A DNA stretch of 64,000 bases, taken from positions 2,232,001-2,296,000 of the forward strand of contig JAMYGW020000004.1 in assembly GCA_025617375.2 (NCBI GenBank). The letters are read 5' to 3'. This document shows, one piece after another, positions 2,021-56,060 of this stretch. Made by a program: the position numbers and the translations under genes. Within the stretch, counting starts at the first letter, position 1, and every line of letters starts with the position of its first letter. Origin of the DNA: Acarospora socialis (Eukaryota > Ascomycota > Lecanoromycetes > Acarosporales > Acarosporaceae). The notes beneath the pieces were generated by a model. It was not told where the DNA came from. It worked only from the letters and a program-made list of their open reading frames with translations, and did no database searches.

Positions 2021-5000
2021 ATGATGCTGTTCAGCAAACCCTTCGCTGGGCTTGCGCTCGCCAGCCTCGTGCTCGATGCTCTGGGCCAGACGACGGTGAC
2101 GGTTACATCAACAAAACAAGTCATCACCACGGCCTCGGTTTGTTCAAGTACTGCTGCTAGTCCAAGTGCTACACTACTAGGATCCAAAATCAGCACCGAT
2201 GGAACTTGTGGAGGGACAAATGGATACATCTGTACAGGATCCACCTTCGGGGTGAGTATTGATATTATCTGTTGAGGATTCGGTCTCTATTCTGACGTAC
2301 ACGATGCAGAATTGCTGTTCTCAATACGGGTATTGCGGTTCCGACGCCGCACACTGTGGGACTGGCTGTCAGCCAGCGTTTGGAATCTGCCCTGCGACTA
2401 CATCCTCATCGGCGTCATCAGCATCAGCCGTATTGCCACTGCCTATCGCGACATCATCAGCGCTGGTGCCAATTCCTATCCCAGCATCATCAACCTCGTT
2501 GCCAGTTCCTAGCGCAACACCCACGGGCTCAAGAATCAGCACAGATGGCACTTGTGGAGGCGCCAATGCCTACACGTGCCAAGGATCAAGCTTCGGGGTA
2601 AGTGTGGAGGCTGTCAGTTGAGAAGAAGATGTTAACGAAGAGTGCAGAACTGTTGCTCTCAATACGGATATTGTGGCAGTGACGCCGCACACTGTGGCAC
2701 AGGCTGCCAGACAGCATTTGGAACCTGCCCTGCGACCACATCTTCCTCAGCTCTTGTTGTCGCACCTACAGGTTCAAAAGTCAGCACAGATGGAACCTGT
2801 GGAGGTATCAATGCCTACACTTGTCAAGGGTCAACCTTTGGGGTATGCATGAACCACACCATTTGAGGAGTGTTTCTGACGGACGACGCAGAATTGTTGT
2901 TCCTTGTATGGATACTGTGGCAGTGATGCAGCACACTGCGGTACTGGTTGCCAGCCAGCATTTGGAACCTGCCCTGCGACTACATTATTGACCTCGTCAT
3001 CGTCATCTGCTGCTTCTTCCTCGCCGAGGCCTACGGCCACCACCTTAGGTTCGAAGGTCAGCACAGACGGAACCTGCGGAGGCATCAATGCATACACGTG
3101 TCAAGGATCGACCTTTGGGGTAAGTTCAGATAAGGCTTGATAAGAACTTTCTGACGAGGTTGCAGAACTGTTGTTCCCAATATGGATATTGTGGTTCGGA
3201 TGCTGCACACTGTGGGACAGGCTGTCAGATTGCCTTTGGCACATGTCCAGCAACATCAACATCATCCTCGAAGAGTACCCTCTCAACCCCTGCTACTCCT
3301 GCTCTGCCAGTCAGTAGCAATGCCCAGTGTGGAGGCCTACTCGGTACCACCTGTCTCAACTCGGCATTCGGGGTAAGTACATCTACCAAGGCAGCTTCAA
3401 GCAGTAAATAACAGAGCGAAGAATTGTTGTTCCTCCTCCGGATATTGCGGTTCCACCGACGCGTATTGCGGGCAAGGCTGTCAATCTAGCTACGGAAGTT
3501 GCAGCAGAGCGGCCCCGAGCTCGGATGGAACATGCGGCGGGGTGAACGGCTACATTTGCACGGGATCAAGTTACGGAAACTGTTGCTCACAGTACGGCTA
3601 TTGCGGTAGCGATGCCGCACACTGTGGTATTGGCTGTCAGTCTGCCTTCGGCACTTGCCCGGCTTCTTCCTCGAGTTCTATTCTTCCTTCGACCCCTACA
3701 CCAACAGGATCTACGGTCAGCAAAGACGGATCTTGTGGAGGTGCCACTGGCTACACATGTCAAGGATCGAGTTTCGGCAATTGTTGCTCCTTATACGGTT
3801 ACTGTGGATCTGACGCTGCTCACTGTGGAACAGGCTGTCAGCCAGCTTTTGGGACTTGTCCGGCAACATCTTCATCAGCTCCTGTTGTCGCACCTACTGG
3901 TCCAAAAGTCAGCACAGATGGAAACTGTGGAGGCACAAGTGGTCAAACCTGTCAAGGATCGAGTTTCGGCAATTGTTGCTCCTTATACGGTTACTGTGGA
4001 TCTGACGCTGCTCACTGTGGAACAGGCTGTCAGCCAGCTTTTGGGACTTGTCCGGCAACATCTTCATCAGCTCCTGTTGTCGCACCTACTGGTCCAAAAG
4101 TCAGCACAGATGGGAGTTGTGGAAGCACAAGTGGTCAAACCTGTCAAGGGTCAAGTTTCGGAAACTGTTGTTCCCAATATGGCTATTGTGGGTCCGACGC
4201 AGCACACTGTGGCGTTGGCTGTCAACCTGCCTTCGGCACATGTCCTGCGACGACATCCTCCTCTTCCTCAGCGGCTCCTATACTTCCTGTCCCTACTCTC
4301 ACGCCATCAGGTCTCAAAATCAGTATCGATGGGAACTGCGGAGGTCTCACTGGCGAGACATGTCAAGGGTCAACCTTCGGAAACTGTTGCTCACTCTATG
4401 GCTATTGTGGGTCTGACGCCGCACACTGTGGAACAGGCTGCCAACCTGCCTTTGGGACGTGTCCTGCGACAACATCCTTCTCTTCCTCAACAGCCCCTGT
4501 ACTTCCTATCCCTACTCCCACGCCATCAGGACTCAAGATCAGTACCGATGGGAACTGCGGAGGTCTCTCTGGCGAGACATGTCAGGGATCAACATTCGGA
4601 GTAAGTCAAGCTCTCCTCTCATCGGACTTTCCCTTTCTTGTCATCGCAACGAAACACGCCGTCATGCTAAGTCCACATAGAATTGTTGTTCCCTATACGG
4701 CTATTGTGGTTCGGATGCCGCACACTGTGGAACAGGCTGCCAACCGGCTTTCGGCACTTGCCCGGCGACGGTCTCATCAACCCCAGCACCCACGCCGACT
4801 CCCAACCATATCAGTCCGGACGGAAGTTGTGGAAGCCCAGCTGGGTACACATGTCAAGGGTCAGCCTACGGGGTAGGTTCAACTTTCCTCGTTTCCTCCC
4901 TGTCATCAGCGAAATGATGACTAACTCAGGTGTAGAATTGCTGTTCTCAATATGGCTACTGTGGTTCGGATGCCACATACTGTGGAACAGGCTGCCAAGC

Positions 5001-8000
5001 TGCCTTCGGCACATGTTCCGCGACGACATCCTCCTCAATCCCAGCACCCATAGTTCCTGTCCCTATACCCACACCGTCAGGTTCTAAGATCAGTACTGAT
5101 GGAAGCTGCGGAGGCCTGAACGGCTACACCTGTCAAGGATCAACGTTCGGGGTAAGTCAGATATGACCTTTATATACAATAATGGATACTTACATGACTG
5201 CAGAACTGCTGTTCCTTGTACGGGTACTGTGGCAGTGATGCCGCACACTGTGGGACAGGTTGTCAACCTGCCTTCGGCACATGTCCTGCAACAACATCCT
5301 CTTCCTCAGCGCCTATAATTCCTGTACCTATTCCAACACCGTCTGGACCCACAATTAGTACCGATGGAAACTGTGGAGGCCTCAGTGGCCAGACATGTCA
5401 AGGATCAACGTTCGGGGTAAGTGCATTTCGACTCAAGCTTGATGTTCGCATGTATGCTCATTTAGATGCAGAATTGCTGTTCCTTGTATGGCTACTGCGG
5501 TAGTGATGCTGCACACTGCGGTACTGGCTGTCAGCCAGCCTTTGGGACCTGTCCTGCGACCTCGTCCTCCGCAGCCCCTATACTCCCTGTACCTGTACCT
5601 ACATCATCAGGATCCACGGTCAGCACCGACGGAACATGCGGGGGTGTCAATCGCTATACATGTCAAGGCTCGACGTTTGGGGTAAGTAGCTTTGGTTTAA
5701 ATATGAACGTAAGATGGACGCTAATCTCAGTACAGAATTGTTGCTCGCTATATGGATACTGTGGCAGCGACGCCGCACACTGCGGCGTGGGTTGCCAACC
5801 TGCCTTCGGAACGTGTCCCGCAACAAGCTCCTCATCCACGCCAAGCGCCGCACCTACAGGACCCAGAGTAAGCACAGACGGGACCTGCGGCGGTGCAAAC
5901 GGCTACACGTGTCAAGGATCGAGCTTTGGTGTAAGTAGAATCACTATCAGCAATGAAGGTGACATGAGAGTTAACTTGGATCGCAGAACTGTTGCTCGCA
6001 ATATGGCTACTGTGGCAGCGACGCCGCACACTGCAGCGTGGGCTGCCAACCTGCTTTCGGAACGTGTCCAGCAACGAGCTCCTCATCTAACCTGATCCCC
6101 TTACCCATACCCACGCCGACACCCGTAGGGTCCCTCGTCAGCCCCGATGGATCTTGCGGAGGACCGCTAAGATACACGTGTCAAGGATCGGCATATGGCG
6201 TAAGTGAATCTGATAGCAGCCACGAAGGAAGATGACAACTAACTGGGGTCGCAGAACTGTTGTTCCCAATATGGTTATTGTGGTAGTGACGCCACCTACT
6301 GTGGTACTGGTTGCCAGGCAGCATTTGGCACATGTTCTGCTATATCGTCGACTTCATCCAACCCCATACCGATACCCACACCCACACCCACACCAACACC
6401 AGTGGGTGTTCTCGTCAGCCAAGATGGAACTTGTGGAGGTGCGCTAGGATACACGTGTCGAGGCTCAGCATATGGCGTAAGTGAAAGCACTAGTGCTCAA
6501 GGAAATAAGATGGCAAGAATCGAAACGCAAACTAACATGGACTTAGAATTGTTGCTCCCAATATGGTTATTGTGGTAGCGACGCCACCTACTGTGGTACT
6601 GGTTGCCAGGCAGCATTTGGCACATGTGCTGCCTCATCGTCGTCTTCATCCAATCCGCTCCCCATACCAATACCGATATCCACATCAAATCCGATCCCCG
6701 TACCGATACCGACATCCACATTGGTTCCCTTACCGATATCCACACCCACACCTAGTGGTATTCTGACCAGCCCTGATGGATCGTGCGGAGGGCCGCTCAA
6801 ATACACGTGTCAAGGTTCTGCGTACGGCGTAAGTGAAGCACAGTGGTCAAGGAGTAAGACTAAAAATAAACAAAACGAAGACTAACCTCTTGGATATAGA
6901 ACTGTTGCTCACAGTATGGCTACTGTGGGAGTGACGTCAACTATTGTGGTTCGGGTTGTCAACCAGCATTTGGAACCTGTTCTGCTACATCGTCATTCTC
7001 ATCCAACTTGATCCCCTTACCTATACCGACACCCACATCAAATCCCTTACCGATACCCACACCTACACCCAGTGGTATTCTGACCAGCCCTGATGGATCA
7101 TGCGGAGGACCGCTAGGATACACGTGTCAGGGTTCTGCATATGGCGTAAGTGAAGCACCAGTGGTCGATGAGTAAGATCAAGAATAATGAATAAAAACTA
7201 ATCTTGACTATAGAATTGTTGCTCGCAATATGGTTACTGTGGGAGTGACGTGAACTATTGTGGTACTGGTTGTCAGTCAGCATTTGGAACCTGTTCAGCT
7301 ACGTCTTCATCGTCGTCAACCCACCTGATTCCCTTACCTATACCGACATCCACATCGATCCCCTTACCGATATCCACACCCACACCCAGTGGTATTTTGG
7401 TCAGCCCCGATGGATCTTGCGGAGGTCCGCTCAGATACACATGTCAAGGCTCTGCATATGGCGTAGGTTCAATCCAAGGCTTGTCTGGACTGCTGCTAAA
7501 TCAGACCTAGAACTGTTGCTCTCAATACGGATATTGTGGCAGCGATTCCAATTATTGCGGGACTGGTTGTCAGGCAGCCTTCGGAACCTGCTCCGCATCA
7601 TCATCCCCCTCATCAAATCCTCTGCCGGTACCGATACCCACATCATCGAATCCTCTGCCGCTACCAATACCTACATCATCGAATCCTCTACCGTTACCCA
7701 TACCCACACCCACACCCAGTGGTACTCTAGTCAGCCCCGATGGATCTTGCGGAGGTCCGCTACGATACACGTGTCAAGGCTCTGCATATGGTGTAAGTGC
7801 AACATAACCCTTTACGTGGATCCCGGCTAAATCATGTGTAGAATTGCTGTTCTCAATACGGATATTGTGGCAGTGACACGAATTACTGCGGGACTGGATG
7901 TCAGCAAGCCTTTGGAACATGTTCCGCATCATCATCCCCCTCATCGAATCCCCTGCCGCTACCAATACCCACACCCACGCCCATAGGGGTCCTCGTCAGT

Positions 8001-8589
8001 CAGGACGGAACTTGCGGTGGTGCACTAGGATACACGTGTCAAGGCTCAGCATATGGTGTAAGTACGACCTAAGTCTCTGCATGGAATCGTTGCTAAACCA
8101 TGTCCAGAATTGCTGCTCCCAATACGGATACTGTGGGAGTGACTCTACATACTGCGGTACTGGTTGCCAGACAGCCTTTGGCACGTGTTCTGCATCATCC
8201 CCCTCATCAAATCCCTTACCACTACCAATACCCACGCCGGCGGGGCCTACAGTCAGCACTGACGGCAATTGCGGCGGCACCAGTGGCGTCACATGCCAAG
8301 GCTCCACCTTTGGAGTAAGTGCAACCCACCTCCCACTTTGAACTCAATGCTAACTCGTCCGCAGAACTGCTGCTCCCAATACGGCTACTGCGGCAGCGAC
8401 GCCGCACATTGCGGCACCGGCTGCCAGCCTCTCTTCGGCACCTGTTCTGCATCCTCGATCCCTCTGACTTCTAACCTCCCTCCTCTGACTCCTTCCCCAA
8501 CCACCACGCCCTGCACGACGAAGATGGTCACCGTCTACGTCACCGTCACGCCGACGCCGAGAGCGAGGCGCGCGCGTTTCGTCCGGTAA
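2021..8589 (+). CDS. Secreted protein with 24 tandem CBM18 (hevein-like) chitin-binding modules
   Basis: Twenty exons: 2021-2251, 2310-2597, 2648-2842, 2892-3119, 3166-3372, 3422-4600, 4681-4872, 4936-5151, 5204-5416, 5472-5681, 5736-5930, 5987-6199, 6255-6476, 6547-6828, 6900-7145, 7214-7462, 7511-7792, 7842-8057, 8108-8314, 8365-8589. All are in phase 0, giving about 1,831 residues. The start was chosen for its N-terminal signal peptide (MMLFSKPFAGLALASLVLDA) and Thr/Ser-rich lead-in. Each module has the hevein pattern: DGTCGG..YTCQGS.FG, then NCCSQYGYCGSDAAHCGTGC, then FGTC; I count 24 NCCS halves. Ser/Pro/Thr linkers separate modules. Every intron sits between FG and NCC, so each exon carries the second half of one module and the first half of the next. 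CBM18 binds chitin/GlcNAc oligomers; no catalytic domain is visible. A cell-wall shielding or chitin-sequestering lectin role is inferred. The C-terminus (TVYVTVTPTPRARRARFVR) has no GPI signal. Confidence 0.9.
3422..4600 (+). repeat. Intron-free block of six chitin-binding modules with a near-perfect 192-bp repeat
   Basis: This single exon carries six NCC half-modules (about 3422, 3576, 3779, 3971, 4160 and 4380) with none of the introns found in every other module. Modules starting at 3779 and 3971 belong to copies 192 bp apart. Positions 3758-3921 and 3950-4113 are identical by eye over 164 bp, indicating a very recent tandem duplication or gene conversion. Confidence 0.9.
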
Positions 8590-52507: not shown

Positions 52508-53811
52508 GCTGTGCTATGCGAGATGTGGATAAAGGCGCAGCAAAGGCGGAGGTCTTGAACGGGCTCGGCAAGTCAGGGGCGGGGCGGGATTTCCCGTCAA
52601 CAGAGTACCTCACTTCCTGTCCTCGTCCATACACGAACCTAGGCTGCAAATTGTAGGCCCAAATATTCGGCTCATACATATACTTCAAACCATCTCCCAC
52701 TGCACGAGGCATACATCATAATGACTTCTTGGCCTTGTGAGCACGTTTCATGCCTAACTAGGTGGTGGTAATCGAAGGGTGAAGAGGAAGCTATTCGGAT
52801 GACGACCTACAGGCTTGTTTTATTCGGCATTCAGCTCGGTCGAAAAATGGCGGGGCCCGATTACACACATGTTGTCAACGAGACTGAGAATATCATCGGA
52901 CAGTTTAGCTCTGATGTTGAGAGAAGGCTGCCTGGGCCAGTGACCTGCTTGTTATTACGAGCACAAGAAAGTATAGGGCGCAGCCGCACCCTTCGTACCA
53001 ACGTCATTATACTTGAACCCACAGACATTGAGTTGGATCAATTTCGAAGGCTCAGCTTTGGGTTACTGCGCGGGAAGCTCGACCCAGTTGTAGAGGAAAC
53101 AATTGTGATTGTTTGATATGGGGTTTCTATAAGATACCAATGATCATTTGATCTAAGGCCCAGGTGAGACTACAATTGTTATTACAAGACAAGCCTGACT
53201 CGAGATTCTTGAGTGCAGTATGCTTAGAGGAAAATGATGCAGTTGCTGCCTGAAATGGTACAGATGTTATATGAACAATCTCTGTTTTTCTGACCCAATT
53301 CAGTGTCCCAAGCTCTCTTGCTTGAATTTTCAATTGTACGGAGTATATCACGTGCAGACATCAGGGATTCAATGTCATCAGAACGGGCTTCTTGAATCGG
53401 AACCTTGTACATACAAAGACAAAACCTGAACAACATTAAGAAAGTTACTAATAAGCTATACGAGTGGTATCTTGTAATGGTATGAAGGCGAATAAACAAA
53501 TCCTCCGCCACCCCAAGGTAAATTTAGGGATGAATCCAACATTAACAAAAGTCGTGGGGTGTTTGTTATTCGCCTTCGTACAAGTACAAGTCCGAGGGGG
53601 ATATGGTATGCTTACCTGTTCGCGTACCTATACCCGCCCGGACTTGTGCTATTGCATACCCAGCCGTGCATGGCCTGACTGGCCGATGGGGCCAGATGCA
53701 GGCTTGCATTGTTCTTGTTGGCACGTCTTCTTCTGTGTCCTCATCAGCAGCTGAACACCAGACTCACTCATATGCTAAAGTCAAGGTACTGTTTACTCAA
53801 ACTTTCCCAGC
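52508..53811. other. Intergenic with one small open frame
   Basis: 1.3 kb between the divergent HNH and HET genes. It contains the 105-codon frame at 52799-53116 listed separately and otherwise nothing recognised. Confidence 0.45.
52799..53116 (+). CDS. Hypothetical 105-residue protein
   Basis: Open frame from an ATG at 52799. It has an amphipathic middle and a hydrophobic C-terminal end (LDPVVEETIVIV). No domain, signal peptide or intron is evident. It sits between the divergent HNH and HET genes. It may be a relic of a longer gene or a chance frame; I do not recognise it. Confidence 0.25.
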   Translation: MTTYRLVLFGIQLGRKMAGPDYTHVVNETENIIGQFSSDVERRLPGPVTCLLLRAQESIGRSRTLRTNVIILEPTDIELDQFRRLSFGLLRGKLDPVVEETIVIV

Positions 53812-54915
53812 ATGCGTCTACTTCGTACCAAATCCTTAAAATTCGAAGAGTTCTTCGACAGCAACATCCCAGAGTATGCGATCTTGTCGCATCGATGGGA
53901 GGGGAAAGAAATATCTTTCCAAGAGTTTCAGAAAAGCAAGAAGAAAAGCGGAGCCGGCTTCTCGAAAATCAAGAAGTTCTGCTCCCTGGCGAAAAGTAAA
54001 GGCTTCGAATGGGTCTGGATCGACACGTGCTGCATCGACAAAAAGAGCAGTGCTGAGCTCTCCGAGGCGATCAATTCGATGTATCGTTGGTACGAAAACG
54101 CTGTGGCGTGCTACGCTTATCTATCCGATGTGGTATGGGAGGCTGGGGATACCCTGAGGTCCCTTGCAAGCTTCAGGCAGAGCGTATGGTTCACGCGTGG
54201 ATGGACGCTTCAAGAGCTTCTGGCGCCTTCGACTGTTATCTTTCTCGACAGTAGATGGGAGCTCATCGGGGATAAGGACGATTTGTTGAATGATATCTCG
54301 GCCATGACAGGGATTACAGCCTATAACCTGAATCATCCGCACCCGGCGAGTGTGGCAACAAAGATGAGCTGGGCCTCAAAAAGGAAGACCAGCAGAATAG
54401 AGGATGTGGCTTACTGCTTGATGGGTGTATTCGACATCAATATGCCGCTGCTCTACGGCGAAGGCAGAAATGCTTTTCGCAGACTCCAGCTGGAGATGAT
54501 CAAAAAGTCATCTGACGAGTCAATCTTCGCCTGGAAAAACCCATTTCCATTCTGTCAGCTGCTCGCCCCCCAGCCCAGCTCATTTGCAGAGTCTGGGAAT
54601 ATCCTCCGTCGAGAATTTTCGGTCAGACCTCCGTATTCGATGACCAACAAAGGTCTGCAATTCCACGTACCATGTTCAGCAATCAAACAAGGCACCATCA
54701 CACTCCCCCTTAACTGTTGGAAATCGCACTCTGGAACCATTCATCGTATCGTGATTACCTTGAAACGGGACGACTCTCGTTCTCGCTCTCGTTGGTTCAG
54801 AGTGAATGCTGACGAATTGTGTCACGTGGATTATCGAGAAATCGATGATGAATGGAAGGAAGGAAACACAGAAATTATCTATATACAAACGAAAATGTTG
54901 TACGGTATCGAGTAG
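53812..54915 (+). CDS. HET-domain (heterokaryon incompatibility) protein
   Basis: A single 367-residue exon. The HET domain occupies roughly residues 1-170: AILSHRWEGKEISFQEF, then WVWIDTCCIDKKSSAELSEA, INSMYRWYENAVACYAYLSD and WFTRGWTLQELLAPSTVIFL. After it comes the usual companion region, with ASKRKTSRIEDVAYCLMGVF and MPLLYGEGRNAFRRLQLEMI. No NACHT, ankyrin or WD40 repeats follow, so this is a stand-alone HET protein. HET domains trigger programmed cell death after non-self recognition between hyphae; the domain is TIR-related. The frame starts at the domain's normal first residues (MRLLRTKSL), which supports the ATG at 53812. Confidence 0.92.
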   Translation: MRLLRTKSLKFEEFFDSNIPEYAILSHRWEGKEISFQEFQKSKKKSGAGFSKIKKFCSLAKSKGFEWVWIDTCCIDKKSSAELSEAINSMYRWYENAVACYAYLSDVVWEAGDTLRSLASFRQSVWFTRGWTLQELLAPSTVIFLDSRWELIGDKDDLLNDISAMTGITAYNLNHPHPASVATKMSWASKRKTSRIEDVAYCLMGVFDINMPLLYGEGRNAFRRLQLEMIKKSSDESIFAWKNPFPFCQLLAPQPSSFAESGNILRREFSVRPPYSMTNKGLQFHVPCSAIKQGTITLPLNCWKSHSGTIHRIVITLKRDDSRSRSRWFRVNADELCHVDYREIDDEWKEGNTEIIYIQTKMLYGIE

Positions 54916-56060
54916 TAATGAGGCACGTCAGAAACCAAGACAACTGGAGAGGTGAGTACTCAGCCTCAAATTACTGCAGCGATTGTACACCATGAAGCTG
55001 ATAGTTCATGCTTCATCTCAGTTGTGGTCCTCTCTGGTCTTGATCCCAATGACCCAAAAGCACTGAGACTAGGCAGTGAGACTACCTATAGATACACGCT
55101 GAGACGGTCGTTGTTAGCCTGGGGGTTGGTCGCGTGAAATCCTTTCTCTGCTTCCTCGAATCCGGCTTTCAAGGCTCTAGCTTCCCAGCCTACGTTCTTA
55201 TCACCATAGGCGGCTCAGAACTCCTCCCGTGCCCGACAAACAATGTTACAGCGTCCTGAGAGTCCCCCGCAAGGCCCGTCCTTCCTTCAAGATATCACTA
55301 GCAAATACGCACGCAACAGCGGAGTGAGCCAAGTCAGTGCTGCAATCCTCCGACCACAATCCGCTACATAACTAACCCTTGCCAGCAGAGCAGCAGCGTT
55401 ACCATCAAGCATAGCAAGTCTCAACTGGCGGCATCCATCATCGTAAAGAGGAGGCAAATGAGCAGGCAAGAGAGCAGGCAAGAGAGCAGGCAAGAGAGCA
55501 GGCAGGAGAGCAGGCAAGAGAGCAGGCAGGAGAGCAGGCAAGAGAGCAGGCAAGAGAGCAGGCAGGAGAGCAGGCAAGAGAGCAGGCAAGAGAGCAGGCA
55601 GGAGAGCAGGCAGGAGAGCAGGCAAGAGAGCAGGCAAGAGAGCAGGCAAGAGAGCAGGCAAGAGAGCAGGCAAGAGAGCAGGCAAGAGAGCAGGCAAGAG
55701 AGCAGGCAAGAGAGCAGGCAAGAGAGCAGGCAAGAGAGCAGGCAGGAGAGCAGGCACAGCACTGACCATACCCCCATCTCACCGCCATTCCATCTTCGCG
55801 CAACTAGACAATCATTCATATTCTCCCCTTCTATCATTGAACTGAGAGAATTAGATAGACACAATAGACGCCAGCACCCGATCTCGCAACAGCCTGGAAT
55901 GTCTGGATTGTGAAAAGCACGCACGACCGAGCCGCAACCACGTATTTCGTACATGGAAATCCCCCCACACACGCAACACCCCAATGCCTTCCACACGCAT
56001 GCGTGCCGATCCTCCTTCCACAATCCCAAGCCCGCTCCAACACACACGCACAGACACCCC
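54916..56060. other. Intergenic, HET 3' flank to SAR1 3' end, with minisatellite
   Basis: No gene was recognised. Apart from the minisatellite, the sequence has C-rich tracts near 55950-56060. Confidence 0.5.
55461..55756. repeat. 12-bp minisatellite, about 24-25 units
   Basis: Unit agcaggcaagag, with a variant agcaggcaggag mixed through the array. Because the unit is a multiple of three without stops, several frames on both strands stay open (Arg-Gln-Glu-Ser on the + strand; Leu-Leu-Pro-Ala, Cys-Leu-Leu-Ser or Ala-Cys-Ser-Leu on the - strand). It lies between the HET and SAR1 genes. Confidence 0.95.

Follow-up and report, generated by a model that had tools for sequence, protein, structure and literature searches.

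Proteins that consist of tandem CBM18 modules only are known from Batrachochytrium dendrobatidis, where the number of modules in the lectin-like proteins (BDEG_01757 and kin; PMC3569864, PMC12204190, PMC5364385) varies between strains and, in the text available, the lectin-like group is sister to deacetylase-like CBM18 genes (PMC3569864). The accessible text of this 2012 study gives 11 CBM18 modules as by far the largest expansion known to its authors (PMC3569864). A published figure of 16 CBM18 is, in the part of the source at hand, a sum over six genes and not a per-gene count. A Colletotrichum table contains CBM18-class proteins of 1778 and 1731 aa, the module numbers not being given alongside in the available part of the paper (PMC11817085); long members therefore exist already. 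Among the ascomycetes, the open text on Leptosphaeria maculans describes CBM18 homopolymers, i.e. five genes with CBM18 only (PMC4113356).

The window analysed here is a 64-kb stretch (C4:2232001-2296000) of a genome of 31.1 Mb in 38 contigs. It possesses a gene of the same CBM18-only tandem architecture at positions 2021..8589 (positions are those of the window; all features described are on the forward strand), with 24 modules in one protein. This is more than twice the highest published per-gene CBM18 count encountered (11, in the accessible text of PMC3569864), and the description of the array as unusually long in a first-pass annotation of the sequence holds within the literature searched. 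A per-gene count above 11 was not found in the accessible open literature; longer arrays may well be known in fungal protein databases, supplements or subscription papers. The array is an extreme, very long member of a known CBM18-only kind.

Gene structure and CBM18 modules

Splicing of 19 GT-AG introns, with splice sites inferred from the sequence, yields a single open frame of 5496 nt in 20 exons, which begins with the ATG at 2021, ends with the stop codon at 8587-8589 and codes for 1831 aa. A series of several genes instead of one is disfavoured by this single open frame across 20 exons. The first 23 residues (2021..2089), recognised by eye and by hydropathy, form a putative signal peptide and contain the 15-residue segment of highest hydropathy in the protein, which is probably secreted. 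A GPI-anchor-like signal was not found in the last 60 residues, whose maximum 15-residue hydropathy is 0.77 and which lack a hydrophobic tail. Without the first 23 residues the protein has about 176 kDa, a pI of 4.9, no tryptophan and no N-glycosylation sequon. Of its 194 cysteines, 192 are located within the modules (2207..8445; eight Cys each), which are connected by Ser/Thr/Pro/Ala-rich, presumably O-glycosylated linkers of 10-54 aa; the C-terminal tail (8446..8586) contains a single additional Cys and ends in an Arg-rich stretch. Hmmscan detected 24 Pfam Chitin_bind_1 (CBM18) stretches (whole-protein E 7.1e-119, 388.2 bits vs a cut-off of 27.8) and no other Pfam domain, catalytic or not, at E 0.001. 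The first-pass claim of one CBM18-only protein with 24 modules and a signal-peptide-like start is thereby borne out.

The eight-cysteine pattern with its CC pair is invariant in all 24 modules, and mean protein identity among modules is 80%. The annotation had counted 24 halves of the form NCC...FGTC; the number 24 stands, but the final motif reads FGTC in 22 modules only, module 1 ending in FGIC and module 5 in YGSC. Three aromatic sites, which we equate with the hevein sugar-binding positions 21, 23 and 30, are occupied by Tyr (23/24), Tyr (24/24) and His (15/24) or Tyr (9/24), respectively. Module 5 (3328-3502), adjoining the intronless block described below, is the most diverged: it has Ser and not an aromatic residue at the first site, and its lowest identity to another module is 60%, against at least 71% for every other module. 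In the module phylogeny, which the annotation had proposed as a check, modules 17-23 (6155..8188) form a subfamily (support 98/99) with YG and with Tyr instead of His at the third aromatic site, and modules 10 and 11 group together (85/88).

The array modules match two solved lectins, wheat germ agglutinin and lectin-C (1ulk), the latter presumably from pokeweed. The third-site His is also present in two of the three matched lectin-C beads. Two AlphaFold models, one spanning two modules and the other a single module, are both of low confidence (mean pLDDT 51.6 and 55.3), so that the assignment to the hevein fold rests on sequence. Judging from family knowledge and the conserved aromatic residues, the modules very likely bind chitin, and high avidity would be likely from 24 linked sites.

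At least 31 CBM18 match rows occur in the genome, 24 of them in the array and at least seven elsewhere (C8, C10, C11 and C12). The Pfam scan of the window took ten of the 39 open frames of at least 150 aa, and identified eIF3a, a cyclic-nucleotide phosphodiesterase, an AAA+ ATPase, a patatin-like lipase, a leucine-rich-repeat protein, a calcineurin-like phosphoesterase and a HET-domain protein; one of the ten had no Pfam match. Upstream lie 13 open frames, of which one was scanned and is a DUF3431 protein. The HET-domain protein is located at 53779-54915; such domains indicate a filamentous ascomycete. A 12-bp minisatellite (55447-55756, 25.8 copies, 95% matches) lies inside a putative open frame that would read RQES repeats. 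In the whole genome at least two LysM matches exceed the cut-off, with exons searched singly, compared with the large CBM18 array. The tRNA and Rfam scans of the 64-kb window returned no hits. Among 365 pattern stretches in the genome contig collection no relative was detected; 29 pattern stretches in viral contigs included one locus (L014), whose match is taken as chance, since the 2.9 kb translated from it show no CBM18 pattern.

Introns of the array and their origin

The introns are 46-80 nt long, and all 19 are in phase 0 directly 5' of NCC, as the annotation had noted; its placement of all of them after FG applies to 11 only, the other eight following YG. Introns 1-5 (2252-2309, 2598-2647, 2843-2891, 3120-3165 and 3373-3421, within the stretch 2252..3421) are each inserted at FG|NCC, and introns 6-19 (4601-4680 to 8315-8364, within 4601..8364) at FG|NCC or YG|NCC. 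The length is not a multiple of three in 16 of the 19, and 14 contain an in-frame stop; retention would thus result in a frame shift or a stop for 18 of them, the intron at 5682-5735 being the only one that would permit read-through. Each of the 18 internal exons has phase 0 at both ends and is therefore symmetric. Skipping of a single exon removes one module in 17 cases, with a full eight-cysteine module restored at the junction, and six modules in the case of the long exon. It is a speculative and improbable reading of this anatomy that exon skipping could yield proteins of graded valency, in addition to germ-line changes in module number, and so form a tunable chitin 'velcro'.

Comparison of the 171 intron pairs resulted in 11 pairs above z 3 (single-base shuffles, 60 each; a common branch-site motif may inflate z), six of which are neighbours. 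The highest scores belong to introns 19/20 (z 9.6), 16/17 (z 6.2), 18/19 (z 5.8) and 22/23 (z 5.5). Introns 17 and 18 do not exceed z 3, though modules 17/18 are among the most similar, and introns 16/17 are similar despite straddling the border of the subfamily 17-23; intron and module histories agree incompletely.

The same intron site is present in a CE4 deacetylase gene on C10 of this genome (L009, G000:C10:1226000-1235000; deacetylase domain E 6.4e-32), which differs from the array by its catalytic domain and by only two such modules, both C-terminal and over the Pfam cut-off. Intron B of this gene is located exactly at FG|NCC in phase 0, whereas intron A is in phase 2 and precedes that point by 1 nt, so the exact match is limited to one of the two modules. 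Over 34-35 residues, the second halves of these modules share 59 and 63% identity with a composite unit of the array. The gene also has an N-terminal CBM18-like module with its intron apparently elsewhere, the FG/WG-NCC intron being carried by the C-terminal modules. An intron at the FG|NCC site is absent from the CBM18 modules read on C11 (two of three; the third, at 1398204, was left out), C12, C8 and C10:594 kb. As the site recurs in the CE4 gene, once exactly and once 1 nt off, it is probably older than the array, and in the simplest reading array and deacetylase modules probably descend from one intron-bearing module. Separate gain of every intron is disfavoured by this shared site and by the similarity of neighbouring introns.

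The annotation had described every module as split by an intron, which fails for five of the 24. These intronless modules 6-10 are contiguous (NCC at 3578, 3779, 3971, 4163 and 4382) and lie in a single long exon of 1179 nt (3422..4600), flanked by the second half of module 5 and the first half of module 11. The chance that five missing introns adjoin is 4.7e-4, or 2.3e-3 with the duplicate 7/8 taken as one. Runs of adjacent precise intron losses are regarded as a sign of recombination with a reverse transcript, and internal cases are reported from Cryptococcus in the available text of PMC2395259. We consider it fairly probable that the five introns were lost as one block in such a cDNA-mediated event. 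That a single intronless module was amplified instead is a possible, tentative alternative: the 7/8 duplication lies entirely within intronless sequence, and modules 6-10 as one clade are not rejected (p-AU 0.161), which leaves room for the spread of one such module, but intron state takes four changes on the best module tree, the intronless module 10 clusters with the intron-bearing module 11, and silent divergence inside the block is large except for 7/8 (dS 0.15), with no finite dS for 6/7, 3.0 for 8/9 and 1.3 for 9/10. A single gene here contains one intron site in 24 paralogous copies, five consecutive ones being empty, which makes the locus a compact natural experiment in how introns are lost and repeats evolve.

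Growth, age and selection of the array

Module identity declines with distance along the array (r -0.36 in modules, -0.39 in exon units; none of 5000 permutations as low). This neighbour-biased similarity of modules, together with that of the introns, fits tandem duplication with the introns carried along. The least diverged modules, 7/8 (3758..4113), form a 192-bp tandem duplication in which 3758-3921 and 3950-4113 are identical over 164 nt (TRF row 3758-4212). The repeat unit given in the annotation, 'second half, linker, first half, intron', is one possible register, but co-variation is stronger between the two halves of a module, across the intron (r 0.49), than between the two halves of an exon (r 0.38); eight further registers range from r 0.025 to 0.224. 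Introns accordingly do not stand out as exchange points, and exchange in the Ser/Thr/Pro linkers may be just as plausible. For the proposed gain and loss of modules the phase-0 argument is unneeded, since in-register homologous exchange preserves the frame at any point, with or without an intron.

In all 276 module pairs pN is lower than pS (medians 0.130 and 0.815), and pS reaches at least 0.75 in 205 of them. Mean pS is 0.804, compared with 0.865 for randomly dealt synonymous codons, and 0.649 of the fourfold sites differ vs a random expectation of 0.720; silent sites are close to, but short of, full saturation. Adjacent modules are less diverged (mean pS 0.632), with the lowest values for 7/8 (0.14) and 17/18 (0.24). 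NG86, which drops the 210 pairs without finite dS or with dS of at least 3, leaves 66 pairs with a median dN/dS of 0.07 and none above 1. With modules of 42 codons and such saturation the rate estimates are rough, and the selection figures are module-wide, not per site.

Given silent sites this near to saturation, the array is mostly old and is kept by purifying selection, and the uniformity of its protein comes mainly from selection, not from youth or conversion. A recent explosive expansion or concerted evolution is rejected for most of the array on the same grounds, as gene conversion would level silent sites too. Rapid turnover is not apparent over most of the array, the pairs 7/8 and 17/18 being much less diverged. 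The apparent age of most modules and their maintenance by selection suggest that the beads that bind chitin are important to the fungus.

Possible functions and comparison with known systems

Our preferred interpretation, which we hold to be probable on the basis of the predicted protein, is that of a multivalent CBM18-only chitin binder, probably secreted, which coats, cross-links or grips chitin. Its 24 hevein-type beads on Ser/Thr/Pro linkers would bind chitin with high avidity, and the protein would coat or cross-link walls that contain chitin, limiting the access of chitinases or receptors, or alternatively grip chitin outside the cell. Its ancestor would be the intron-bearing module common to the array and the C-terminal CBM18 modules of the CE4 deacetylase, whose copies would have arisen by mostly ancient tandem duplications and stayed almost uniform through purifying selection at the protein level, with five adjacent introns lost probably through a single recombination with a reverse transcript. 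Shielding of chitin by this protein is conjectural; chytrid CBM18 genes gave no significant response to chitinase, which the authors, in the accessible text, hold against a chitinase-fencing role (PMC5364385).

The protein might instead be an effector that sequesters or shields chitin oligomers and is directed at a plant or another host. A precedent is the powdery mildew chitin deacetylase splice form that lacks most of the enzyme but retains its binding module, and which binds chitin and blocks signalling by it (available text of PMC9605236). With few LysM matches in the genome (at least two over the cut-off) another chitin binder could take such a role, but the scanned neighbours are ordinary genes (eIF3a, phosphodiesterase, AAA+ ATPase), and the modules are under purifying selection, in contrast to the positive selection described for Batrachochytrium lectin-like modules in the open text of PMC3569864, so that we regard an effector as unlikely. 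Also unlikely, in our estimate, is a trap with which chitin of foreign origin (insect, fungal prey) would be retained or fed on, beside secreted chitinases. Identical binding modules would serve this purpose, adhesion or binding to chitinous structures has been proposed for chytrid CBM18 proteins (accessible parts of PMC3569864 and PMC5364385), and GH18 chitinase-family matches are present in the genome (18 rows, 16 over the cut-off); the array protein, however, has no enzyme domain, and the window contains no GH18 match, with about 370 kb to the nearest one on this contig. CE4 matches are absent from the window as well, the nearest on the contig lying 0.9 Mb away. Kex2-processed repeat precursors likewise combine a repeat architecture with a signal-peptide start. 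A precursor of many small peptides of this class, which the repeats and the start of the array protein resemble, is nevertheless extremely improbable, as dibasic sites between the repeats are missing and the only one among the 1831 residues, at 1825, lies in the tail. The array is a clear test object for the effect of multivalency on chitin binding and wall protection.

Hevein, wheat germ agglutinin and lectin-C (1ulk) share with the array the eight-cysteine chitin-binding bead with conserved aromatic residues, and the latter two also several beads per chain. Plant hevein-type lectins, unlike the array, have few beads and lack long Ser/Thr/Pro linkers. QID74 of Trichoderma resembles the array in its tandem repeats (13) with Cys, and is wall-associated and a proposed shield, but according to the available text its repeat is unrelated to CBM18 and is reported to act via chitinase binding (PMC13170347). 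The Batrachochytrium lectin-like proteins belong to a different phylum and have, in the accessible text of the 2012 paper, up to 11 modules vs 24 in the array, with positive selection in several module groups in contrast to pN<pS in all pairs here (PMC3569864). In Leptosphaeria maculans, 28 CBM18 domains are distributed over 11 genes genome-wide, as given in the open text of PMC4113356, whereas the array combines 24 in one gene.
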